Of a stretch of DNA of 64,000 nt, positions 16,673 through 47,394 are shown piece by piece (position 1 is the stretch's first letter; the number at the start of each line of letters is the position of its first letter). Where the stretch lies: the NCBI GenBank assembly GCA_003139695.1, contig PLJM01000005.1, forward strand, positions 1-64,000, given 5' to 3'. This stretch comes from Candidatus Dormiibacterota bacterium. Lineage in GTDB: Bacteria > Chloroflexota > Dormibacteria > Dormibacterales > Dormibacteraceae. Under the pieces are notes generated by a model. That model had not been told where the DNA came from and did no database searches. It saw only the letters and a list, made by a program, of their open reading frames with translations. The translations under genes and the position numbers were made by a program.

Positions 16673-19036
16673 TCACCTTCTCACGGCCTCCCGATATTCC
16701 GGAGAGCGCGGGTCTGGCATCGGGAGGCGCCAGTTTCCCGGCGCCATCCGCCAGCGCTCGATACGCCAGCCGCGCTGACCCGCGACCTGTGAGAGGCGCG
16801 CGTCCGGGTTGACCGCCACCGGCGTGCCCACGAGCTCGAGCATGCCCAGGTCCGACAACGAGTCCGCGTACGCAAAGCTCTCGGCCAGCACGATTCCGTT
16901 GCGCGTCGCGTACTCCTCGAGAAGCGTGCCACGTGCCTCACCAGCAGGCGGCGGCGACTGGAGGTCCCCGGTGAGGCGGCCGTCAGCATCGATGAGCAGG
17001 TGCGCGCAATCGACCTCGACCTCGAGCAGGTCGGCCAGCGGCTGCACGACGACGTCGAGCGCTCCTGTCAGGAGTAGAACGCGGTGCCCTGCCCGCTTGT
17101 GCTCGCGAATGCGGCGCATCCCTTCGGGATAGATGCGGCGCAACGTGACCGCATCTAGGGCCTCTCGCCCGAGTCCCTTCATCACCTCGTAATCGAGGCC
17201 CTTGTACTCGCGGTAGAAGGTGCGCTGGAAGTCGGCCCTGGACCGGCGCTCCAGGTAGAGCCATCGCGGCGCCTCGCGGAGCATCTGCGCCATGAACGAG
17301 GGCCAGTCCTCCAGCGGCTGCGCGCGAAGCCGCATCCACAGGAAGTATTCGACGATGTTCGTCTCGACCAGCGTGCCGTCCACGTCGAATACTGCGAGCA
17401 CATCCGCGCGACCGGTGCGCCTCTCGATGGCTGAGCGCACAGAACTACTCTCGGGCTTGACGGCGGTGCTGCCGGTGGGTTGCTTGCCCTTCCGCACCAC
17501 GGTCTCGGCGCGGGACATGCGAACGACGGTGGGGAGATGCACGTCCTGGAAGTAGTGGTCCCAGTCATACAGCGCTGGGTCGAACGGAAATTGTTTGCGT
17601 TCTTCCGACGGGACCTTGTCCCATATCTCCGTGACGTGGCGCGTATCGAAGATGCAGTCGACCTCGGTGTAGACGCCGTAGAGCTGGATGAGGTTGACGG
17701 CGCGTTCCAAGCGCTCGCGTTCCCCGTTGAGGTCATCGGAGACCTTTGCGACATCGGCGCCGAGGGGCAATCGCTCCACAACCCATTGCGCCGCTTCAAC
17801 GAAGCGCAAGGCGGTGGTGGCCTGGGCCGAGAGCTGGCCGCGAGTCGGATAAGTCCAGGTCGGGGTGCCTATGGCCTGCCCGTATTTGTCGCGCAGCGGA
17901 TTTTTGGTGAAGTACCGCCTGGACGCGTCCTCGACCTCGCGGAACCGCAGCGGATTCCGAGTGCCGGATGCGGCATGGTAGACGCGAGGCTTGTCATCGG
18001 GTGGAGGATTCGCGGCTACCGCCAGGACGGTGTTGACGACGAAGTCGGCCGGGATGATGTCGAGCAGGGCGTCGGGAAGGCCCGAGAAGTCCTGCAGGAT
18101 GCCGCGCCCGAAAGCCAGGATCAGTGGCTCGGCCATGCGGAAGCCTTCGAGCCAGCCAGGGAACGGCTCGGCCAGCGCGCTCTCGATGATGGACGGTCGC
18201 ACGATCGATAGCGGGATGTCGCCATGCAGCTCAACGATGGCGTGCTCGGCCATCGCCTTGGTGAACGAATAGATGTCGGCGAAACCCATCGCGTTGGCGT
18301 GGACGCGGCCGCGCTCGATGAGCTTGTCCTTGACCCAACGGTCGCGAAGGCGTTCCGTCGTTCGTGCGACAGCCGGCGTGCCGGCCGGACCCATCTTCGC
18401 GCCCGCCTCGCGGCGCAGGCGCTTCAGGATCTCCGGTCTTCGCGACTCCTCTTCCACCACTGGGCGTAGGTTCGACAGGACGGCCGCTTCATGACGCCAG
18501 TTGAGCCCTGGGTCGTGAGGAGCCTGCTCGCGGACGAGGCCGCGGAGCATCCCACCCACGTACGCGGTCGACACGTGCACGAGATGCGGCCGGCTCCCGG
18601 CTGCCTTGAGCGCCTCCACCATCCGCGCCGCGCCGAGCAGGTTGGTCTGGGCCGAGAGGTCTGCCGGATTGTCGAACTCGACGGCGGCGGCCGAATGGAT
18701 CACGATCTCGCACTCTCGAAGCTGCTCGCGACCCGCGTCGCTGAGGCCGAGCCCGTCGCGGCCGAGGTCCAGCTCGAGCACCGCCAGCTTTTCCTTCACG
18801 AGCTTTGAGAAAGTCTCTTCGCCAAGCTCCTCTCTGAGGCGCTTGAACGCGGGGCTCGCCAGCACCTCGCGCTCCAGCCTTTCGGCGGCGGGACGGCGGG
18901 TGCTGGAACGAATCGCCAGGTTGATCCGACCGACTTCGGGGATCGAGCGCAGACACTTCTCGACTATCGACTTGCCCAGGAAGCCGGTCGTGCCGGTGAC
19001 CAGGATGGTCTTACCCCTGAAGGCCTCAACAATCAA
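16673..19036 (-). CDS. fatty acyl-CoA reductase fused to HAD-IB hydrolase
   Basis: 787 aa. The N-terminal half (about 8-400) is an extended SDR of the male-sterility/FAR type: ILVTGTTGFLGKSIVE, VIHSAAAVEF, VSTAYVGG and YSFTKAMAE (catalytic Tyr-x3-Lys). It would reduce acyl-CoA or acyl-ACP to aldehyde or alcohol with NADPH. The C-terminal ~240 residues are a SerB-like HAD phosphatase: DVDGTLVETN (nucleophile Asp), LLLTGALD and ADSLSDLGML. SDR-HAD fusions are known in Actinobacteria. With the WS/DGAT at 59 kb it suggests wax-ester synthesis. TTG start with TAGAAT 9 nt upstream. Confidence 0.85.
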   Translation of the reverse strand: MIVEAFRGKTILVTGTTGFLGKSIVEKCLRSIPEVGRINLAIRSSTRRPAAERLEREVLASPAFKRLREELGEETFSKLVKEKLAVLELDLGRDGLGLSDAGREQLRECEIVIHSAAAVEFDNPADLSAQTNLLGAARMVEALKAAGSRPHLVHVSTAYVGGMLRGLVREQAPHDPGLNWRHEAAVLSNLRPVVEEESRRPEILKRLRREAGAKMGPAGTPAVARTTERLRDRWVKDKLIERGRVHANAMGFADIYSFTKAMAEHAIVELHGDIPLSIVRPSIIESALAEPFPGWLEGFRMAEPLILAFGRGILQDFSGLPDALLDIIPADFVVNTVLAVAANPPPDDKPRVYHAASGTRNPLRFREVEDASRRYFTKNPLRDKYGQAIGTPTWTYPTRGQLSAQATTALRFVEAAQWVVERLPLGADVAKVSDDLNGERERLERAVNLIQLYGVYTEVDCIFDTRHVTEIWDKVPSEERKQFPFDPALYDWDHYFQDVHLPTVVRMSRAETVVRKGKQPTGSTAVKPESSSVRSAIERRTGRADVLAVFDVDGTLVETNIVEYFLWMRLRAQPLEDWPSFMAQMLREAPRWLYLERRSRADFQRTFYREYKGLDYEVMKGLGREALDAVTLRRIYPEGMRRIREHKRAGHRVLLLTGALDVVVQPLADLLEVEVDCAHLLIDADGRLTGDLQSPPPAGEARGTLLEEYATRNGIVLAESFAYADSLSDLGMLELVGTPVAVNPDARLSQVAGQRGWRIERWRMAPGNWRLPMPDPRSPEYREAVRR

Positions 19037-21932: not shown

Positions 21933-22489
21933 CCCAGGCCGGACAGCTGTCCGATGTGCTCCTCGAGGTGGCCGACAACCAGATTCTGAAGCAGCTCGCC
22001 GACCCTCGCCTGGCGGTTGCCCTCGCGATTGTGGAAGTCGACGGTCCGCTCCAGGTCATCGGGACTCATGGCCGCCAGCAAGACGAGGACGCGTCCGATC
22101 TTCTCGTCGATAGCTCGTCTGAGCTCAACTTCGGAGGCAGCGTTGCCGTGGTCGATGCCCTGCCGGCGGAGCGCGGCGCCCTGCTCGTCCCGGCCCATCG
22201 TGGCCGACCCCTCGATCGCGCCCTGAATCTGCGCCGTCCAGTAGTCAAGCATCTCGCTCATGTGGCCGAGGACGTTTCCACGATGCCACGCCTCGCCGGT
22301 TGCCGGATCAACGGGGCCGGCGCCACGATCAACTTCCACGGGCAGACAGGCCAGGCCGGCCCGCGTGGCTGCAACTCGCTCACGCAACGCCTGCAGGTCG
22401 TGGCTGTCGTTCTGAGGGGGGACGTCCCCCCTCGAGGCATCCGGCCTGGCGGCGCCAGCTCCAGATGCACCCCCCTCGATCTCGCTCAT
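21929..22489 (-). CDS. DinB-like four-helix protein
   Basis: About 186 aa. NVLGHMSEMLDYW and VVGHLEEHIGQL place the three metal-binding His of the DinB/YfiT-like superfamily, whose members are metal-dependent transferases (often thiol-dependent) or unknown. ATG at 22489 overlaps the stop of the metal-regulator gene (ATGA), fixing the start. The first ~30 residues are Gly/Ala/Asp-rich and encode a GC palindrome also found in the mutase gene at 56.9 kb. Co-transcription with the regulator suggests a link to metal homeostasis, not proved. Confidence 0.75.
   Translation of the reverse strand: MSEIEGGASGAGAARPDASRGDVPPQNDSHDLQALRERVAATRAGLACLPVEVDRGAGPVDPATGEAWHRGNVLGHMSEMLDYWTAQIQGAIEGSATMGRDEQGAALRRQGIDHGNAASEVELRRAIDEKIGRVLVLLAAMSPDDLERTVDFHNREGNRQARVGELLQNLVVGHLEEHIGQLSGLG
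22405..22432. repeat. 28-nt GC-palindrome repeat inside the DinB gene (copy 1)
   Basis: TGTCGTT followed within 4 nt by GGGGGG-ACGT-CCCCCC. It matches 56895-56922 at 22 of 28 positions with no gap, and is read in the same frame there (Arg-Gly-Asp-x-Pro-x-x-Asn-Asp). Confidence 0.55.
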
Positions 22490-23187
22490 TTCGGGACCAC
22501 CCATAGCTTCGCAGCGGTGTCATGGCTCAGCGTCACCGAGCGCTTTCCCGCGCGGACTGTGATGGTGCGGGCGACACCGTCGACCTCGAGCACCGCAATG
22601 TCCCGGCCTGGAGTGAGCCCGCGCTCGTGCAGGTAATTGAGCAGGGTCGGCGCTTCACGCTCCGCAACCTCTGACACCCGCGACACCGACGCATGCGTCC
22701 GAGGCTCGAGGCTCGCGAGCCTGACCTCTCTCGGCACGGCCTTGGAGTACCCCGGAATCGGGTTGCCGTGGGGGCAGGTTGTCGGCCTGCCCAACACCTC
22801 GTAAAGGCGCCGCTCGACGACCTCGGAGACGGCGTGCTCCAACCGCGCGGCCTCTTCGTCGGCGGTCACCCAATCCAGGCCGAGCCCATCGGTGAGCCAG
22901 CGCTCCATGATGCGATGCCGCCTGACGATGGCCTCGGCGGCCCGACGGCCGGCGGCGGTCAGCTCGATCTCCTTGCGCTTGTTCATGCGCACCATGCCGT
23001 AGCCGGCCATCCGCCGCACCGCCACGGTGACCGTCGGCCGGCTCACCCCCAGCCAGTCGGCGAGGCGCGCGCTGCGCAGCGGCTCTCCCTCCGACCACAT
23101 GTAGTAGATGGCCTCGAGGTAGTGCGCAACCACCTCCGAAGGGGGCCTCGAGCCCGCGTTAGACTTATCTAATTGCGCCTTTTGCAC
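22486..23187 (-). CDS. DtxR/IdeR-family metal-dependent transcriptional regulator
   Basis: 233 aa with the full DtxR layout: winged HTH (about 20-75, ARLADWLGVSRPTVTVAVRRM), dimerisation and metal domain (HRIMERWLTD, EEAARLEHAVSE, TTCPHGNPIPG, all close to IdeR/MntR) and a C-terminal FeoA/SH3 domain (about 155-233). It would bind Mn(II) or Fe(II) and repress metal-uptake genes. It starts (GTG) 22 bp from the divergent ZIP transporter gene. A palindrome inside codons 6-10 is a candidate operator. Confidence 0.9.
   Translation of the reverse strand: MQKAQLDKSNAGSRPPSEVVAHYLEAIYYMWSEGEPLRSARLADWLGVSRPTVTVAVRRMAGYGMVRMNKRKEIELTAAGRRAAEAIVRRHRIMERWLTDGLGLDWVTADEEAARLEHAVSEVVERRLYEVLGRPTTCPHGNPIPGYSKAVPREVRLASLEPRTHASVSRVSEVAEREAPTLLNYLHERGLTPGRDIAVLEVDGVARTITVRAGKRSVTLSHDTAAKLWVVPK
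23159..23172. promoter_or_regulatory. candidate metal-regulator operator (palindrome)
   Basis: TTAGA-CTTA-TCTAA is a perfect inverted repeat, with ends resembling DtxR-family half-sites (TTAG...CTAA). It lies 38-51 bp upstream of the ZIP transporter ATG and just inside the regulator gene, so a bound repressor could control both directions. Confidence 0.5.
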
Positions 23188-23209
23188 GTACTAATCCTGT
23201 GAGCCCACT

Positions 23210-23998
23210 ATGAGCCAAACCACTGCCGTTTTACTGGGAGCCTTCGCCGGCGCCACCATTTTCCTAGGCTTGCCGGTGGCGCGCCTGCGCGGCCTGCCGA
23301 AGTCGGTCCAGGGCTTCCTCAACGCGTTCGCGACCGGGATCCTCGTGTTCCTCCTCTGGGACATCCTGAGCCACGCCGGGGACAGCGTGCAGCTCACCGT
23401 TGCCGGCGCTCGCGCGGGCGACAGCGGGCCGTTCGTGATCATCGCCGTGATCTTTGCGGTCGGCGTCGGGGCCGGCCTTTTGGGCCTCGTTTACTTCAAC
23501 CGCGCGATCTTCGGGCGCTTGAAGCACGGCGCCCACAGCCCAAGCCCCAAGTCGCTCTCCCTAGCCATTGCCACGGGGCTTGGCCTGCACAACCTCTCGG
23601 AAGGCCTGGCCATCGGGCAGTCCGCGCACACGGGTGCGATCGCCTTCGCGGGCGTCCTGGTCGTCGGCTTCGCCCTCCACAACGTGACCGAGGGCTTTGG
23701 GATCGCCGCCCCGATGACGATGGAGCCGAAGCCTGCCTCTTGGGGCTTTCTGGGGCTGGCCGGGTTGATCGGCGGCGGCCCCACCTTCATCGGCGCCTGG
23801 ATCGGCTATCTGGCCAGCTCGAACTACTTCTACGTGGCGTTCCTCGCCATCGCGGCCGGGGCACTGTTGTACGTGGTCAACGAGCTGTTCAACGTGGGCC
23901 GCAAGCTGAGCTCGCCACCGGCCTTCGCCTGGGGCCTGCTGCTGGGCTTCCTGACCGCGTACGCAACGGACCTGATCCTTACGTTCGCGTCGGCCTAG
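23210..23998 (+). CDS. ZIP-family metal transporter
   Basis: 262-aa membrane protein with about eight hydrophobic segments. TM4 and TM5 carry the metal-site motifs HNLSEGLAIG and HNVTEGFGIA typical of ZIP (ZupT/GufA-like) proteins, which import Zn, Mn or Fe. The divergent IdeR/MntR-type regulator and the palindrome between them suggest metal-responsive control. TACTAAT at 23189-23195 is a possible -10 box. Confidence 0.92.
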   Translation: MSQTTAVLLGAFAGATIFLGLPVARLRGLPKSVQGFLNAFATGILVFLLWDILSHAGDSVQLTVAGARAGDSGPFVIIAVIFAVGVGAGLLGLVYFNRAIFGRLKHGAHSPSPKSLSLAIATGLGLHNLSEGLAIGQSAHTGAIAFAGVLVVGFALHNVTEGFGIAAPMTMEPKPASWGFLGLAGLIGGGPTFIGAWIGYLASSNYFYVAFLAIAAGALLYVVNELFNVGRKLSSPPAFAWGLLLGFLTAYATDLILTFASA

Positions 23999-25333: not shown

Positions 25334-25447
25334 CTATTTTTGTCCTGACGCCCTTGCTGACAGCTTGCGCAATGTGCCCAGAGACAGCCAGAGGAAGCCG
25401 CCCAGGATGAGAACGGCGACGGCGTACGCAACGACGAGATAAATCAT
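25334..25447 (-). CDS. ccmD: heme exporter protein D-like small membrane protein
   Basis: 37 aa: one transmembrane helix (YLVVAYAVAVLILGGFLW) followed by a basic tail (LRKLSARASGQK), the usual build of CcmD. ATG at 25447 overlaps the ccmC stop (ATGA), and it is the last gene of the ccm operon. CcmD stabilises the CcmABC-heme-CcmE complex. The assignment rests on size, topology and position, since CcmD sequences are poorly conserved. Confidence 0.75.
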   Translation of the reverse strand: MIYLVVAYAVAVLILGGFLWLSLGTLRKLSARASGQK

Positions 25448-26136
25448 CGGGCCGGCTCCGGCTCTCGCTGCGCGCCGACAAGCTGGACGACTGGCGACGG
25501 CACTTCATCCGTAAGCGTCTCGATCTGGTAGCGGATGGCGACCATCACGGCGGCCAAGAACAGCGTGCAGGCCATCGTAACCAGGAACACGAACAGCATC
25601 TGCGGAGGCAGCGCGTCGCTGATGATCACCGGCCCAGGATGCTGGGTGCGCCACCACGTGACGCTGAAGTACACGATGGGCACGTCGACGAAGCCGAAGA
25701 TCCCGACCACCGCCGCAAAGCGCGCGGCCTGTCGTCCTGGCTCGGCCAGGCGGCGAAGGAGCAGATAGCCCGCGTAGATGATCCAGAGCACCAACGTCGA
25801 CGTGAGCCGTGCGTCCCAGGTCCAGAACGTTCCCCATATCGGCTTCGCGTACAGCATCCCCATGACGAGGGTGACGGTGGTCAGCACCACGCCGACCAAC
25901 GCGGCCGCCCTCGCCAGGCGATCGGCCCGTAGGCTCTCGGTTCGCAGGTAGGCGATGCTCGCACCCAACACAACTGCGAAACAGGCGAAGGCAGCGATCG
26001 CTGCGCTGACGTGCAGATAGAAGATTCGCTGCGGCTCCTTCTGAAGGAAATCCTCAGGCGCGTAGAAGAAGATCAGCGCTCCGGCGACGAGCATGAGCAG
26101 CACAGCCGCCGCTACCAGCCTCGTGTACCTAGTCAT
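25444..26136 (-). CDS. ccmC: heme exporter/cytochrome c maturation protein CcmC
   Basis: About 230 aa with six hydrophobic segments and the tryptophan-rich WGTFWTWDARLTS periplasmic loop that presents heme to CcmE. Axial His lie in FYLHVSA and near the C-terminal half. ATG at 26136 overlaps the ccmB stop by 8 nt; the longer reading upstream has no family resemblance. Confidence 0.92.
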   Translation of the reverse strand: MTRYTRLVAAAVLLMLVAGALIFFYAPEDFLQKEPQRIFYLHVSAAIAAFACFAVVLGASIAYLRTESLRADRLARAAALVGVVLTTVTLVMGMLYAKPIWGTFWTWDARLTSTLVLWIIYAGYLLLRRLAEPGRQAARFAAVVGIFGFVDVPIVYFSVTWWRTQHPGPVIISDALPPQMLFVFLVTMACTLFLAAVMVAIRYQIETLTDEVPSPVVQLVGAQREPEPAR

Positions 26137-26794
26137 CCAGGACAAACCTCGCCGCGAGCGACGTGAGCACGACAAACAGTATGTCGAAGTCGATGAGCAG
26201 GGCCACGGCCTGGTTGTAACTGCCGCTTGCGCCCATCGCCACCTGGACGGCCTGGCCTCCGGCAACGATGAACGGAATCCATAGCGGCAGAGTAAGAAGC
26301 GGCAGCAGCACCTCCCTCGAGCGCACGCGCGCCACCATGGCGGCGAACAGGCAACCGAGAGCCGCCATGCCGACTGTCGCGATGAGGACAGCGGCGACCA
26401 GCTCTGCGTTGAACGGAGTTCCGAACATCAGCGCGAGCGCCGGCAGCAGGACCGCTTCGCACGCGATCAGCAACAGGGCAGCGGCGATGGCCTTGCCCGC
26501 GAAGATCGCGGCCGCGGACGCAGGCGTGAGCAGCATCGCTTCCAGTGAGGCCTGCTCGCGCTCGGCGGCGAACGCGCGACCGAAGGCGACCAAGCCTGCA
26601 AACACAAGCGCCAGCCACAGCACGCCTGGCGCGATAACCGTCGCGTTCTGCGAGTCGATCTGGAACCCAAAGTTGGCGATCACCAGCGCCAGCACGACGA
26701 ACTGGCCGAGCGCGGGCACGAGCTCGCGCGTGCGCCATTCCGACGTGAGGTCCTTCCTGGCGACCGCATAGGCGACTGCGATCGATCGGGTCAA
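26129..26794 (-). CDS. ccmB: heme exporter permease CcmB
   Basis: 221-aa ABC-2-like permease with six transmembrane segments; FAAEREQASLEAMLLTPAS matches the conserved coupling region. With CcmA it forms the ATPase that releases holo-CcmE from CcmC. TTG start overlaps the ccmA stop by 4 nt (TTGA). Confidence 0.9.
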   Translation of the reverse strand: MTRSIAVAYAVARKDLTSEWRTRELVPALGQFVVLALVIANFGFQIDSQNATVIAPGVLWLALVFAGLVAFGRAFAAEREQASLEAMLLTPASAAAIFAGKAIAAALLLIACEAVLLPALALMFGTPFNAELVAAVLIATVGMAALGCLFAAMVARVRSREVLLPLLTLPLWIPFIVAGGQAVQVAMGASGSYNQAVALLIDFDILFVVLTSLAARFVLDD

Positions 26795-27435
26795 CGGACC
26801 ACCCGCAACCTGGTGCCCGCACCGAGCGACCTGCCGTTGCGCAACATCACAGTTCGCTGGCAGAGGCGGTTCGCGAGTGCGTGATCGTGGGTGGCGAGCA
26901 CCACAGAGCGCCCGCGCATCACGCTCGCCAACAGGTCGGGGCCGTCCGAGTCGAGACTCGCGTCAGGCTCGTCGAGGACCAGGAGGCGCGGACTGTGCAG
27001 AACCGCACGTCCGATCGCAAGCCGTTGCTGCTCACCGCGCGAGAGCCGTCCTGCCGGCCGCCGCGCGACGTCGCTGAGCCCAACCAAGGCCAGCGCCTCA
27101 GGCACGCGCTTGCGGTCGACGTCGTGCAGCGAGCAGAAGAATTCGAGATTCTCCGCCGCCGAAAGAGCTGGGTACAACCCAGGCGCATGGGCGACATAGC
27201 CGATTTGCGCCCGAAGCGCCTTGCGCTCACGCACTGCGTCGAGCCCGAAGATCGCAAGCTGTCCGGAAGTCGGACGGGCCGCGGTGGCGAGGATGCGAAG
27301 CAGCGTGGTCTTGCCGGCGCCGTTGTCCCCCAGGACCGCAAGGTGCTCTCCCTCGTCGAGCGCAAGGTCGACGGCGTCGAGGGCAACGTCCGAACCGAAC
27401 CGCTGAGTGATCTCGTGGGCGACGATCGCGCTCAC
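26791..27435 (-). CDS. ccmA: heme exporter ATP-binding protein CcmA
   Basis: 214-aa ABC ATPase: Walker A GDNGAGKTTLL, signature LSRGEQQRLAIGRA, Walker B LLVLDEPDASLD and switch His in ATHDHA. Placed between the small ORF and ccmB with GTGA/TTGA overlaps, which identifies it as the CcmA subunit. Confidence 0.92.
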   Translation of the reverse strand: MSAIVAHEITQRFGSDVALDAVDLALDEGEHLAVLGDNGAGKTTLLRILATAARPTSGQLAIFGLDAVRERKALRAQIGYVAHAPGLYPALSAAENLEFFCSLHDVDRKRVPEALALVGLSDVARRPAGRLSRGEQQRLAIGRAVLHSPRLLVLDEPDASLDSDGPDLLASVMRGRSVVLATHDHALANRLCQRTVMLRNGRSLGAGTRLRVVR

Positions 27436-27548
27436 TTTGTTTTCTCGGTGATCGCCGGCGCGGGTTCATCAGCCGGTGTCTTGATCAGCGGCCAGAGCAC
27501 GAACGGGCCCGACGCGAACAAAAGGAGCGTCGCAACGATCAGCGCCAT
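27432..27548 (-). CDS. small membrane protein within the ccm operon
   Basis: 38 aa, one helix (LIVATLLLFASGPFVLW) and a short acidic/Thr tail. ATG directly follows the ccmF TAG, and its stop overlaps the ccmA GTG (GTGA), so it is fully embedded in the operon. No family recognised; it is too short for CcmH or CcmI. It could be a CcmD-like accessory subunit. Confidence 0.6.
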   Translation of the reverse strand: MALIVATLLLFASGPFVLWPLIKTPADEPAPAITEKTK

Positions 27549-29510
27549 CTAAGCCGGCAACGGGCTCGCGACACGCGCCACCTGGAGCTCGAACACCCTC
27601 TGCCTCTCCCCCACGTTGCCCAGGATCACGCCCAGGATGATGATCGCGCCGCCGGCCCAGATCCAGCTGACCAACGGGTTGACGAAGATTACAAATGCCG
27701 CTGAGCCGTCAGTGTTCAGGCCGGCGAGGACGACATAGACGTCGGCAATCGGCGTGCTGCTTATCGCCACGTGCGTGAGCGACTGGCCACCAAGCCCCGC
27801 GTAGGTCGCGCGCGCCGGCTCCAATGTCTGGTCGCCGAGGCGCATCGCGCCGACCAGCTCGGTGTGATCGGCGAGCTGTCTCTGCTCAGCACCCGTATAG
27901 GTCAGCGTGTATCCAGCGACGGACACCTGGTCCCCTGGCATGAGGGAGATGTCCTTCTCCTGCTGCCAGAAGTGTGACCCCGCGATACCCACGACCAGCA
28001 CCACCATCCCGAGGTGCGCAAGGTAGGCCCCGTAGCGCCGCCGTTTTCGCACGACCACGGCGGCCGCCTGTGCCCAGCCCTGACGCGATCTGCGCAGCTT
28101 CAGGCCCATCCGCGAGTACTCGACCAGGCACGTCGTCCCCGCGGCGGCGGCAAGGGGAATGGCAAGGAGCGCCGGCACTGACCGCACGCCCGCCACGAGG
28201 AAAGCGGCCGCAACGATGGCGGCCACGGCTAGTGGCCACCGCAGCGACTGCAACGACGCGAAGCCCGCATGGCGCCATGGCAGCAGAGGTCCGGCTGCCA
28301 TCAACGCCAGGAGCACCACGAAGAGCGGTCCTGCCGCGCGTTCGTAATAAGGGGCGCCGACCACCCGCTCCTGGCCGAGCATGCCTGAGACGAGCGGCAG
28401 CACGGTTCCCCAGAAGACCACCGCTATCACTCCGATCAGGACGAGGTTCTGCAGCACGAAAGCGCTCTCGCGCGATACGGTAGGCGCGGCGCGGGCGGTA
28501 CTCGCAAGCGAGCCGGCGCGGAACGCCAGCAGGCCGATTGAGAACACAAGGCAAACGAAAAGAAACCCGAAGAACCAGGGACCGATGGCGCTGACCGCGA
28601 ACGTGTGCACCGACGGCACGACACCGCTACGAACGATGAAGGTGCCGAAAACGACCAGCAGGAAAGCCAGGATCACGAGGGCGAAGTTCCATGCCTTCAA
28701 CCTGCCTCGCCGCTCCTGGACCTGCGATGAGTGCAGGTAGGCAGTCGTCGCGAGCCACGGCATCAGTGCCACGTTTTCGACTGGATCCCAACCCCAGTAG
28801 CCCCCCCAACCGAGTACGTGGTACGCCCACCACATGCCGAGCACCAGCCCGGTGCTCTGCAGCGCCCAGGCCATCAACGCGAAGCGGCGCGTATGGGCTA
28901 TCCAGGCGGCGTCCGACCGGCCGGCCAGGAGAGCCGCGGCGGCAAAGCTGAACGGGATCGCGAACGACGCGAAGCCCGCGAGCACCACCGGCGGGTGGAT
29001 GAGCATCCCCATGTCGCGAAGGACGGGATTGAGGCCCAGGCCGTCCGGCGGTGTGACTGGTAAGAGGTCGAATGGGCTCGCGACTATGACCAGGACCACC
29101 AGCAAGAAGGTCTCAATCGCGGCCAGGATCCCGGCGGCATACGCGGAAAGGCGCACCCCGAGCGAGGAGCTGGCGACCAGCGAGGCGCTGCCGAGGAGCC
29201 CGAGCACGAGCGCCCAGTAGAGGAGAGAGCCCTCCTGGCCGCCGTAGAAAGCAGCGGCGATCAGCGGTATCGGCGTCGAGAGGTCGGTGTGCTCGGTCAC
29301 GTAGGCGAGCGAGAAGTCGTGCGACAGAAGGCCGAGCTCGAGCAGGGCGGCTGCGACCAGGATCATCGCCGCGCTCGCGTAAAAGGCGCGCCGGCCGATC
29401 TGGACGAACACCGGGTTCTCGCGCCAGCCGGCCCAGAAGGACAGCACGGCCGAAAACCCGCCCATCACGAGCCCCGCAAGCAGGGCGCCGGCGCCGAGGT
29501 AGCCGATCAT
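27549..29510 (-). CDS. ccmF: cytochrome c heme lyase subunit CcmF
   Basis: About 653 aa, some 14-15 hydrophobic segments. The WWD domain GWGGYWGWDPVENVALMPW and flanking His (LIHPPVVLAG, YLHSSQ, PSVHTF) form the heme-handling site that attaches heme to apocytochrome c. ATG at 29510 starts 7 nt after ccmE; the longer reading would overlap ccmE. Confidence 0.93.
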   Translation of the reverse strand: MIGYLGAGALLAGLVMGGFSAVLSFWAGWRENPVFVQIGRRAFYASAAMILVAAALLELGLLSHDFSLAYVTEHTDLSTPIPLIAAAFYGGQEGSLLYWALVLGLLGSASLVASSSLGVRLSAYAAGILAAIETFLLVVLVIVASPFDLLPVTPPDGLGLNPVLRDMGMLIHPPVVLAGFASFAIPFSFAAAALLAGRSDAAWIAHTRRFALMAWALQSTGLVLGMWWAYHVLGWGGYWGWDPVENVALMPWLATTAYLHSSQVQERRGRLKAWNFALVILAFLLVVFGTFIVRSGVVPSVHTFAVSAIGPWFFGFLFVCLVFSIGLLAFRAGSLASTARAAPTVSRESAFVLQNLVLIGVIAVVFWGTVLPLVSGMLGQERVVGAPYYERAAGPLFVVLLALMAAGPLLPWRHAGFASLQSLRWPLAVAAIVAAAFLVAGVRSVPALLAIPLAAAAGTTCLVEYSRMGLKLRRSRQGWAQAAAVVVRKRRRYGAYLAHLGMVVLVVGIAGSHFWQQEKDISLMPGDQVSVAGYTLTYTGAEQRQLADHTELVGAMRLGDQTLEPARATYAGLGGQSLTHVAISSTPIADVYVVLAGLNTDGSAAFVIFVNPLVSWIWAGGAIIILGVILGNVGERQRVFELQVARVASPLPA

Positions 29511-29517
29511 TGGTGGT

Positions 29518-29916
29518 TCACTGTGTATACGGAGTCGTTGAGAAGCGCGACGGGCATTTCGCCAAGACCGCGCTTGCGTGGAAGACGCCATCGGTGCCTA
29601 GCCTTCCCTCGGCGACCACCGTTATCCCCGGCTGGAAGATGTCCGGGAGCGTGCCGTGATACTCGACGGGGATCGATGCGGTCCCATCCTTCTCCGTGAA
29701 GAGGACCTGGAGCCCGCCCTCGCTACGCTGCACGTCGTTCTGCACGACGCCAGCCACCCGCACGTCACCGCTGTTCGCGTGGGCACGGAGCTCCGACACC
29801 GTCAGGTAGTACTCTGACGACCCGCCGGAAGCGGAGTAAACGAGGTAGGCGACACAGGCAGCGACGACCGCGCCCAAGAGCGCCCATTTCACTCCCGGAA
29901 GCATGCCAAGGATCAT
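29518..29916 (-). CDS. ccmE: cytochrome c maturation heme chaperone CcmE, Cys variant
   Basis: 132 aa: N-terminal anchor (WALLGAVVAACVAYLVY), then the OB-fold core (VRVAGVV, IPVEYHGTLPDIFQPG, VVAEGRLG, FHASAVLAKC). The canonical heme-binding HxxxY is replaced by Cys121 with CPSRF, as in the CxxxY CcmE proteins of 'System I*' organisms; even the Tyr is Phe. It carries heme from CcmC to CcmF. Overlaps the ccmG-like gene by ATGA. Confidence 0.9.
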   Translation of the reverse strand: MILGMLPGVKWALLGAVVAACVAYLVYSASGGSSEYYLTVSELRAHANSGDVRVAGVVQNDVQRSEGGLQVLFTEKDGTASIPVEYHGTLPDIFQPGITVVAEGRLGTDGVFHASAVLAKCPSRFSTTPYTQ

Positions 29917-30425
29917 GCGATGAGCCCCAGGTAATGATCGATGGTCGGCGTATCGAGCGGCCCTTCGAACGATGCGACAACCATGCCGCTCGAGTCGATG
30001 AAGACGGTCACGGGAGGTGCCACCACGCCGTAAGACTGGTAGTCACCGTCGACGATCTGGCCGACTGGGTAAGGGTGCGGATGCCGCTGCTCGAACGCAT
30101 GCAGCGAGCCCGCGGTGTCCTGCATCGCAGCCCCGACGAAAGCGACGCCGGGGTGGGAGCTGGCAGCGCTCGCGAGGACTGGTAGGTCCAGGGCGCAGCT
30201 CACGCACCAGGATGCCCAGAAATCCAGGACCACCGGCTTGCCGCGGAGGTCCGAGACCTGTAAGGTGCTCCCGTCGGACTGCTGGATCGCCAGCCGAGGC
30301 GCCGCATTGCCGATGAGAGCCGGCCGCTGCATGGCCGCATGCTGGAGGCCCCAGGCCAGCGAGAGCATCAAGGCGGAACCCAGGACTATCGCAACCGCCG
30401 CGATCGATCCCGACCTTCGATTCAC
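29913..30425 (-). CDS. membrane-anchored thioredoxin (CcmG/TlpA/ResA-like)
   Basis: About 170 aa: N-terminal membrane anchor, then a thioredoxin fold with active site FWASWCVSC and cis-Pro loop VAPPVTVFIDSSG. It would keep apocytochrome cysteines reduced for heme attachment. GTG at 30425 overlaps the GH1 stop (GTGA), fixing the start. No ccmH is present, so this is the only thiol-reducing ccm component visible. Confidence 0.88.
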   Translation of the reverse strand: MNRRSGSIAAVAIVLGSALMLSLAWGLQHAAMQRPALIGNAAPRLAIQQSDGSTLQVSDLRGKPVVLDFWASWCVSCALDLPVLASAASSHPGVAFVGAAMQDTAGSLHAFEQRHPHPYPVGQIVDGDYQSYGVVAPPVTVFIDSSGMVVASFEGPLDTPTIDHYLGLIA

Positions 30426-31672
30426 TGGGCTGAGTCTAGTGGGAGAGAGTTGGCCTGCGCGATACGGGCATAGAGCCTCCCGCTGGGCTTGATCCGCCGC
30501 TCCAGAGTCTTGCGATCGACGTCGATGAGTCCGAACCGCATTGCGTAGCCGCGAGCCCACTCGAAGTTGTCCATGGTCGTCCAGTGGAAGTAGCCGCGAA
30601 CGTCGACCCCATCTGCGATCGCAAGTTGCACGTTGGAAAGGATTTCCTTGAGGTAGCGCTGACGCCACTCGTCGTCGTTGCTGGCCAGCCCGTTTTCGGT
30701 GACGAATACCGGCTTGCCGAGAGACTTCAACTCATTGAGCACAACGCGCATCCATGTCGGGTCCGATGTCCATCCCATGTCGGTCACAGGCGTGTCCGGG
30801 ACGTTGAAGCGCCTGATGAACTGATGCTGTGGCAGGCGAGGATCAAACGCGCACATCTGCCCCCAGTAGTGGGCGATGCCCACATAATCCGCGGACGCCT
30901 CAACGACTTTGCTCAACCGGCCTGGAGCGACCGGCCACCGGTCAAGCGCCAGCTGCGCGGTTTTCGTCGCCCATAGGTCGCGCCGCTTCTCCGTGGCGGG
31001 GAGCATCAGGAACTTGTGATGCGAGAGACCGACCAGCGCATCCGGCCAGCGGCGCTTGATGGCGCTGTAGGCCAGCTCGTGCGCGCGTCGCATGTTGCTC
31101 GTGACTCGGTACAGACCGGCAAGGTCGCCTCGAAGCGCCGGCGGAAATTCGCCGACCACCCAGCCGTTCGCGGCATAGATGTTCGGCTCGTTGATGGTGC
31201 ACCACAATCCGATCAGGTCCCCAAGCTCATCGATAACTCGATGCACAAAAGGCATGAATGCGTGCGCCGCGCCGGAGGCCGCCCACCCGCCCTTGCGGGT
31301 GAACCACAGCGGGCTCGTGAAATGGTGCAGCGTGACCATGGGCTGCATGCCCTGCTCGCGCAGCTCGCCCAGGACGTCGCGGTAATGCCGGATCTGGCGC
31401 GAGTCGAACTCGCCCGGGGACGGCTCGATGCGCGACCACTCGAGCGACAGCCGATGGGCGTTCTGTTGCATCTCGCGAAGGAGCGCGAAATCCTCGCGGT
31501 ACCGGTGGTAGTGATCGCAGGCGATCGCGGAGGAATCGCCGTTCGCGATCCGGCCCGGCTGCTGTTCGAACTCCCACCAATCGCTGTTGCGATTGTCTCC
31601 CTCGACCTGGTGGGCGGCACTGGCGGTACCCCACAGGAACCCGTCTGGGAATCGCCCAGCCGCTGTAGTCAC
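30422..31672 (-). CDS. glycoside hydrolase family 1 beta-glucosidase-like enzyme
   Basis: 416-aa GH1 barrel. TINEPN holds the acid/base Glu and VTENGLAS the nucleophile Glu; the N-terminal FLWGTASAAHQVEG is the family signature. It hydrolyses beta-glycosides in the cytoplasm. It is coupled by GTGA overlaps to a histidine phosphatase upstream and the thioredoxin gene downstream, so it is co-transcribed with cytochrome c maturation genes without an obvious functional link. Confidence 0.92.
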   Translation of the reverse strand: MTTAAGRFPDGFLWGTASAAHQVEGDNRNSDWWEFEQQPGRIANGDSSAIACDHYHRYREDFALLREMQQNAHRLSLEWSRIEPSPGEFDSRQIRHYRDVLGELREQGMQPMVTLHHFTSPLWFTRKGGWAASGAAHAFMPFVHRVIDELGDLIGLWCTINEPNIYAANGWVVGEFPPALRGDLAGLYRVTSNMRRAHELAYSAIKRRWPDALVGLSHHKFLMLPATEKRRDLWATKTAQLALDRWPVAPGRLSKVVEASADYVGIAHYWGQMCAFDPRLPQHQFIRRFNVPDTPVTDMGWTSDPTWMRVVLNELKSLGKPVFVTENGLASNDDEWRQRYLKEILSNVQLAIADGVDVRGYFHWTTMDNFEWARGYAMRFGLIDVDRKTLERRIKPSGRLYARIAQANSLPLDSAQ

Positions 31673-45761: not shown

Positions 45762-46187
45762 GTGATGGAAGCAGGACCTCGATATCTCGAAGGCACCACG
45801 GTTGGGAGCGGGCGCGACATCATCGGGGTGCGGCGTGACCGGATCGCAGACATCATCAGCACCGGTCGCGAGATCATCTCGAGGGCGAAGGGTGAGAAGC
45901 TTCTGCCCGAAACGATCACCGGCGCCACTGCCGCGCTGCTCGTCACCATCGCCGGCTATGGCGAGCCGCTGTCTGAAGGCCAGTGGCGCGAGCTCGCCGG
46001 CGTTGTTGGCGGGATCATGCGCGACAACACGTATGCGGACCTTGCCCGCCTTCGAACGTTGATTACGCAGGAGCAGTTCTTCAACGTGGCCCGAAATCAG
46101 GGTTACGGTCGCTTCATCCGGCGCCTCGATGATGGTCGCTGGGTGTGCGAGCTGGCCCCCAAGCTGGAAGACCTCCCTGACGAATAA
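45762..46187 (+). CDS. hypothetical protein
   Basis: 141 aa, mixed alpha/beta, no signal or membrane helix. Visible features: a repeated Ile-rich helix (RDRIADIISTGREIISRA), a hydrophobic Thr/Ala helix (ITGATAALLVTIAGYG) and an aromatic GRFIRRLDDGRWVCEL segment. No family recognised. GTG at 45762 or ATG at 45765; TAGAAT lies 9 nt upstream. It precedes the beta-propeller gene by 31 nt. Confidence 0.6.
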   Translation: MMEAGPRYLEGTTVGSGRDIIGVRRDRIADIISTGREIISRAKGEKLLPETITGATAALLVTIAGYGEPLSEGQWRELAGVVGGIMRDNTYADLARLRTLITQEQFFNVARNQGYGRFIRRLDDGRWVCELAPKLEDLPDE

Positions 46188-46218
46188 TTCCCTGGTCTCA
46201 CTCCTGCGGTCGCGACCA

Positions 46219-47394
46219 ATGCGAATTGTGGTCGCGGCGCTCTTCACGCTGGTGATACTCAGCCCCGCCGGAGTGGTCTTCGCCGTGGTCTGGACAACTC
46301 CATACCTCGGCCCGGCGACATCGGCCGAAGAAGCGGCACCGACGGGACCGGTAAGCGTCCTCCCGGCTCCCGATGTCCAGCCGGGCACCCTGCCTGCGAC
46401 ACCTGTGAACGTGTATGCCAACATCATGTCGGGCACCGTCCCATGTCCGCTCTGCAAGATCCCTCCACGCGTTTACGTCCCCAACAGCGGAGCCGGTACG
46501 GTTGATGTAATCGATCCATTGACCTTCAAGGTGATCGACCACTTCGCGGTCGGTTCGATTCCCCACCACATCGCCCCTGCCTGGGACATGAGCGCGCTGT
46601 ACGTCGACAACGAAGGATCCAGCAGCCTGACGGTGATCAACATCCACACCGGCAAGCCCAGCGGAACGATCTCGATGCCGTATCCCTACAACCTCTACTT
46701 CACTCCTGACGGCACCAAGGCGATTGATGTCGTCGAACGGCTGCAGAAGATCGTGTTTCTTGATCCGCACCACGGATGGAAGCAGCTCGGGTCGGTCGCC
46801 ATCCCATGGGCCGGGGCGGATCACCTCGACTTCAGCGCGGATGGCAGCTACCTCATGATCTCGACCGAGTACACCGGGATGGTCGCCAAGGTCGACGTCA
46901 TTCACATGAAGCTCGTCGGCGCTGTGCACGTAGGTGGATTGCCGATCGACGTCAAGCTTTCGCCCGACGGCACTGTCTTCTACGTGAGCAACCAGGGCCG
47001 CATGGGAGTGTCGGTGATCGACCCCATCGCGATGAAGGAGATCCAGTTCATACCCACCGGGAAGGGTGCGCACGGGTTCCAGATTTCACGTGACACCCAG
47101 TACCTGTACGTGTCGAACCGGCTGGAAGGGTCCTTCTCGGTCATCTCTTTCGCCACTCGCAAGGTGGTCGCCAAGTGGTGGATCCCTGGTGGCGGCAGCC
47201 CCGACATGCTCCAGCTCAACCCTGCCGGCACGCAGCTGTGGGCCTCAGGCCGTTACAACGGCACGGTCTACGTGATGAACACCATCACCGGGAAGCTGCT
47301 CGCCAAGATCCCGGTCGGGTTGGAAGACCACGGCCTGACCTACTTCCCGAACGTAGGCCTGCACAGCTTGGGCCACAACGGCGTTTATCGCTAG
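46219..47394 (+). CDS. exported beta-propeller (YVTN-repeat) protein
   Basis: About 391 aa: N-terminal hydrophobic anchor or signal (VVAALFTLVILSPAGVVFAVV), a Pro/Thr linker with CPLC, then six to seven YVTN/NHL-like blades (RVYVPNSGAGTVDVID, ALYVDNEGSSSLTVIN, VFYVSNQGRMGVSVID, YLYVSNRLEGSFSVIS). Such proteins act as surface-exposed or secreted binding scaffolds. The stop at 47394 is followed 7 nt later by structured element C. Confidence 0.83.
   Translation: MRIVVAALFTLVILSPAGVVFAVVWTTPYLGPATSAEEAAPTGPVSVLPAPDVQPGTLPATPVNVYANIMSGTVPCPLCKIPPRVYVPNSGAGTVDVIDPLTFKVIDHFAVGSIPHHIAPAWDMSALYVDNEGSSSLTVINIHTGKPSGTISMPYPYNLYFTPDGTKAIDVVERLQKIVFLDPHHGWKQLGSVAIPWAGADHLDFSADGSYLMISTEYTGMVAKVDVIHMKLVGAVHVGGLPIDVKLSPDGTVFYVSNQGRMGVSVIDPIAMKEIQFIPTGKGAHGFQISRDTQYLYVSNRLEGSFSVISFATRKVVAKWWIPGGGSPDMLQLNPAGTQLWASGRYNGTVYVMNTITGKLLAKIPVGLEDHGLTYFPNVGLHSLGHNGVYR

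Follow-up and report, generated by a model that had tools for sequence, protein, structure and literature searches.

Our analysis of 64,000 nucleotides of DNA from a Candidatus Dormiibacterota bacterium (the whole stretch is hereafter called the window) indicates that this soil organism probably matures its c-type cytochromes with a functional System I of the Cys-type CcmE kind ('System I*'), and that a 38-aa protein encoded between ccmF and ccmA is most likely what remains of CcmI, namely its membrane helix. A Cys-type CcmE without CcmH is already known as System I*, and neither trait is news. The observation is real and mostly known; what is new is the conserved single-helix CcmI remnant in a CcmH-free operon, CcmI seeming, from the sequences compared, to have been reduced to a single conserved transmembrane peptide some 30 residues long.

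Re-reading of the sequence placed the ccm cluster on the minus strand at 25334-30425, where the earlier note had reported it and where all of its genes are present. It comprises eight genes arranged head to tail in a compact run (Table 1), with neighbours that mostly overlap by a few bases, including the thioredoxin stop and the ccmE start (4 nt) and the ccmB stop, which is overlapped by the ATG of ccmC at 26136. Family matches to CcmA, CcmB, CcmC, CcmE and CcmF are all present together, which identifies the cluster as System I (Ccm), and CcmF aligns with Thermus CcmF (6zmq; E 2e-89) over residues 2-629, that is nearly its full length including the WWD region. Among its named relatives, those with 72-84% identity are from genomes of soil metagenomes that bear the label Chloroflexi or Candidatus Dormiibacterota; Candidatus Dormiibacter inghamiae and Ca. 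D. spiritus are among those with 56-58%. The thioredoxin matches PF00578 (E 5e-13), PF08534 (E 4e-12) and the ResA model NF002854 (E 6e-19, under that model's cut-off); against the CcmG/DsbE model TIGR00385 it scored 45.6 bits and did not reach the cut-off of 123, the better ResA-like score being sub-cut-off as well. Both tiny genes pointed out in the earlier note are real, as the 38-aa ORF is conserved in the family and relatives of the 37-aa CcmD occupy the same position behind ccmC, one of them matching with 60% over 30 aa at E 3e-7.

Table 1. Genes of the ccm cluster in their order along the minus strand, with window positions and family matches.
Gene	Position	Strand	Remarks
TlpA/ResA/CcmG-like membrane-anchored thioredoxin	29913..30425	-	WCVSC active site; GTG start
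ccmE, Cys-type	29518..29916	-	PF03100 E 3e-24
ccmF, cytochrome c heme lyase, WWD domain	27549..29510	-	PF16327 E 3e-55, PF01578 E 7e-35
38-aa single-helix protein	27432..27548	-	slot between ccmF and ccmA
ccmA, heme exporter ATPase	26791..27435	-	TIGR01189 150.7 bits (cut-off 131.6)
ccmB, heme exporter permease	26129..26794	-	PF03379 E 2e-28
ccmC, heme delivery to CcmE	25444..26136	-	PF01578 E 2.5e-36; TIGR01191 E 1e-40
ccmD, 37 aa	25334..25447	-	TIGR03141 E 0.003, PF04995 E 0.015, both below curated cut-offs

The stop of the ORF upstream of the thioredoxin gene (30422-31672), which we take from its sequence to be a family-1 glycosidase, overlaps the thioredoxin start. Elsewhere in the window lie a divergent pair (22486-23998) formed by a DtxR-type metal repressor with a FeoA domain (minus strand) and a ZIP-type metal transporter (plus strand, below cut-off), and a 787-aa protein (16673-19036) in which a HAD phosphatase domain is fused to a fatty acyl-CoA reductase-like (male sterility) domain.

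The CcmE motif reads CPSRF, with Cys121 encoded at 29554-29556 (TGC) and Phe125 at 29542-29544 (TTC). When searched with phmmer against E. coli CcmE (1sr3, 8ce8), the stretch LAKCPSRFS was aligned on LAKHDENYT, and Cys121 thus corresponds to E. coli His130 and Phe125 to Tyr134. The alignment and the codons bear out both residues as first described, and the Cys at the heme-binding position is that of System I*, although published work disagrees on covalent heme binding by Cys-type CcmE (PMC3884852). A tyrosine near the C-terminus (Tyr130) was considered as a stand-in for the absent Tyr and rejected, as it is not conserved in the family. For a wider view, CcmE genes were fetched from a sample of the phylum, found with an iterated profile, and the ligand position was read: it is Cys in 93 of 128 CcmE-bearing genomes and His in the other 35. 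The last motif position is divided almost evenly between Phe and Tyr in the Cys-type rows (47 vs 46) and, among His-type rows, is Phe in 20 and Tyr in 15; no motif of the phylum, CcmH-bearing genomes included, is more frequent than CPSKF and CPSRF. The remark that 'even the Tyr is Phe' is therefore right as to the residue but not as to its oddity, and we reject the idea that Phe for Tyr is exceptional. The earlier description, which placed the Cys type in archaea and a few bacteria, Desulfovibrio among them, was likewise an understatement, since Cys is the majority state in this phylum and Cys-type CcmE in chloroflexi, together with four Phe cases, had already been reported (Stevens et al., 2011; PMC3601427). 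Two genomes of the survey (G002 and G015; loci L003 and L004) each carry two adjacent CcmE genes, one with CPSKY and one with CPHSY or CPHRY.

The window genome measures 3.3 Mb and is 93.9% complete, and absence was judged there from family searches, which returned one CcmE, no match to CcmH (PF03918) and no full CcmI domain (TIGR03142). Neither a second, His-type CcmE nor a CcmH gene elsewhere in the genome was thus found, in agreement with the lack of CcmH first noted. This absence is not an assembly gap, because 37 relatives of the same Dormibacterota family (f1) are also without CcmH, which was found in 4 of its 42 genomes and is wanting from 38. Across the phylum CcmH is present in 70 of 93 Cys-type and in all 35 His-type genomes, so that its loss is seen only among Cys-type genomes (23/93 vs 0/35; Fisher p 5e-4, a value that is descriptive only since the genomes are related). 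The proposition that Cys-CcmE implies CcmH loss is rejected by the same 70 genomes, and with it the claim that CcmH absence defines the Cys type; the review by Stevens et al. (2011; PMC3601427) puts the share of Cys-type bacteria that have CcmH at about one third. The System I* label is nonetheless right for the window genome, which combines a Cys-type CcmE with missing CcmH, even if the latter trait is not strictly defining. CcmH absence is a derived state of this family. On the CcmF tree the four CcmH-bearing members (support 98) are sister to the ten CcmH-less rows (support 98), and the outgroup rows come mostly from CcmH-bearing genomes, which makes loss the simpler direction.

The 38-aa ORF begins with the very next base behind the ccmF stop, shares 4 nt with the start of ccmA and shows a coding-like GC content by codon position. 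In the four CcmH-bearing family genomes (G175, G233, G217 and G232) the order is ccmF, ccmH and a gene for a 73-91 aa protein that consists of one membrane helix plus a helical stretch, and the CcmI N-terminal domain model TIGR03142 matches three of these four long forms, one of them above the cut-off (30.7 vs 29.3 bits). The long forms share both the slot and the 4-nt ccmA overlap with the ORF of the window. In 33 other genomes of the family, including that of the window and all without CcmH, the slot is occupied by a helix-only ORF of 27-60 aa, mostly of the form MxxIVATLLLFxAGPFVLWPL[IL][KR]TP followed by a free tail, and nearly all of these end in the same 4-nt overlap. Short and long proteins have a core resembling VATxxxLLxxxPFxLWPLLxxP in common, although twenty-odd hydrophobic residues can look alike through convergence. 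Direct Pfam and NCBIfam searches with the window's 38-aa protein returned nothing, and with no match to TIGR03142 it falls short of that model's cut-off for CcmI, so its assignment rests on its relatives, among which the copy of a genus-mate gave E 0.03 against the same model. When an HMM built from the 33 short forms was searched against the 25,216 six-frame segments of all fetched loci, the hits next in rank to its own members were CcmI-type proteins, with E 3e-4 to 3e-3 for those of three CcmH-bearing family members and of G194.

By position and shared helix core the ORF is thus akin to the CcmI N-terminal domain, and its 38-aa product most likely represents the membrane helix left over from CcmI (a 'mini-CcmI'), a probable remnant that we do not file as CcmI itself. 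The earlier note had listed it as an unassigned membrane protein, a designation that needs correcting in view of its slot, its overlap and the profile ranking, and had stated that CcmI is absent, which holds for the full domain but most likely not for the helix. The simplest reading of the family is one loss of CcmH together with the helical domain of CcmI, the helix being retained and disappearing later in at least one instance. Since the co-occurrence of CcmH and long CcmI forms amounts to one event on the tree, it provides no statistical argument for a functional link between them.

An unlikely though not negligible alternative is that the ORF serves only as a translational coupler of ccmF to ccmA and that its peptide does nothing. 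In favour of this, the TAG of ccmF is directly followed by the ATG and the ORF, ending in its 4-nt overlap, fills the gap exactly, while the C-terminal tail is free in length and sequence; moreover, in G036 and G222 the ORF is gone and ccmF overlaps ccmA directly, so that coupling is kept. This same exchange also speaks against the coupler, since it shows that the peptide is unnecessary for coupling, and over roughly the first 25 residues the protein sequence is strongly conserved although its synonymous sites vary. The short forms are under purifying selection, with a pN/pS of 0.29 pooled over 22 codons of the 33 sequences and of about 0.1 for near pairs, low values that in membrane helices come partly from hydrophobicity alone. 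The peptide is not essential everywhere, being absent from G036 and G222. Less probable still is that an unrelated membrane protein, e.g. a CcmF assembly peptide, took the slot upon loss of ccmH and ccmI; the window copy has no direct family match, which fits this reading, but the core in common with the long CcmI forms, the same slot, the same overlap and the profile ranking all favour descent from CcmI. That the operon is decaying, with CcmH and CcmI on their way out for want of much use of cytochrome c and with the Cys/Phe motif as part of the decay, would fit the single PF13442-type cytochrome found in the window genome but is highly improbable, given eight intact genes, an operon conserved in about 40 genomes, a CPSRF/CPSKF motif commonest in the phylum even where CcmH is present, and a cytochrome c kept in every family genome listed.

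The thioredoxin gene adjoins ccmE in all ten CcmH-less family members in which that side is covered and is not beside ccmE in the four CcmH-bearing members, a distribution from which TlpA could be thought to replace CcmH. We rejected this idea, as a copy with 45-50% identity is present at another place in the genomes of the four CcmH-bearing members, which reduces its absence beside ccmE to a difference in gene order, and as thioredoxins are also found in many ccm loci of the phylum, including those of genomes with CcmH. A search of the window genome for a CcdA/DsbD reductant (PF02683) gave no match; this does not establish that the gene is missing, since most members of the family do give matches, of which several are weak.

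At least one client for the pathway is encoded in the window genome, a cytochrome c that is anchored in the membrane and has the motif CTSCH (locus L206, 7174-7758), and no System II ResB (PF05140) was found there. The weak ResB matches seen in a few family members fall, at least in some cases, on the ccmF frame itself (e.g. G027:C17). At the level of the class, families f2 and f3 mostly have System II (ResB) and the window's family f1 has System I, and in f4 neither maturation system nor a cytochrome of this type was found in the genomes sampled, which suggests that the maturation system was switched, or was gained horizontally, within one class. A YncE-like beta-propeller encoded at 46129-47394 of the window is weakly similar to the cytochrome d1 heme domain.

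By analogy with characterized systems, CcmABCD would move heme out and load it onto Cys121 of CcmE, the TlpA/CcmG-like thioredoxin would keep the CXXCH thiols reduced, and CcmF would attach heme to the apocytochromes (CXXCH), working without CcmH. Precedents exist in a Cys-type Desulfovibrio operon, which in E. coli supports cytochrome maturation with neither CcmH nor CcmG (PMC3601427), and in Methanosarcina, where CcmABCEF suffice and the Cys of CcmE is needed (PMC9084895). The CcmI helix would have been kept after CcmH and the CcmI helical domain were lost, and CcmF is its likely partner because CcmF, CcmH and CcmI form one membrane complex in R. capsulatus (reviewed in PMC3884852); the 38-aa peptide would then most likely be a small subunit packed against CcmF. 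That this ~30-residue single-helix CcmI microprotein is a true subunit of a CcmH-free CcmF synthase is a tentative proposal, to which we give somewhat less than even chances. If true, what CcmF needs of CcmI would be one membrane helix and not the apocytochrome-binding domain.

The phylum-wide count splits traits that have often been bundled as 'System I*', in that Cys-CcmE, Phe for Tyr and CcmH loss do not form one package, although CcmH loss is confined to Cys-type genomes in this sample. The family itself forms a natural deletion series, from CcmH with the CcmI N-terminal protein of 73-91 aa (L039, L172, L177 and L178), through the helix only, of 27-60 aa (the window, 27432-27548), to nothing (L174 and L176), and should be useful in working out how CcmH and CcmI serve CcmF.

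With the canonical System I of E. coli the window operon shares the CcmABCDEF protein families and the presumed order of action, whereas its CcmE has Cys and Phe in place of His130 and Tyr134 and CcmH is absent. Compared to the System I* of Desulfovibrio, also with a Cys-type CcmE (Allen, 2006; Goddard, 2010; as reviewed in PMC3601427), it has a CcmG-like thioredoxin, a CcmI cut to one helix and Phe for Tyr in the ligand motif. It resembles the streamlined Ccm of Methanosarcina acetivorans (PMC9084895) in its Cys-type CcmE and in the lack of CcmH and of a full CcmI, but archaea are without CcmD and the CcmF of M. acetivorans is split, whereas in the window CcmD is present and CcmF is whole. 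As for the peptide, it has neither the TPR domain of proteobacterial CcmI nor the helical region found in the 73-91 aa proteins of its CcmH-bearing relatives, and it is like the CcmI N-terminal domain (TIGR03142) in its membrane helix, its LWPLL core and its slot in the ccm operon before ccmA.
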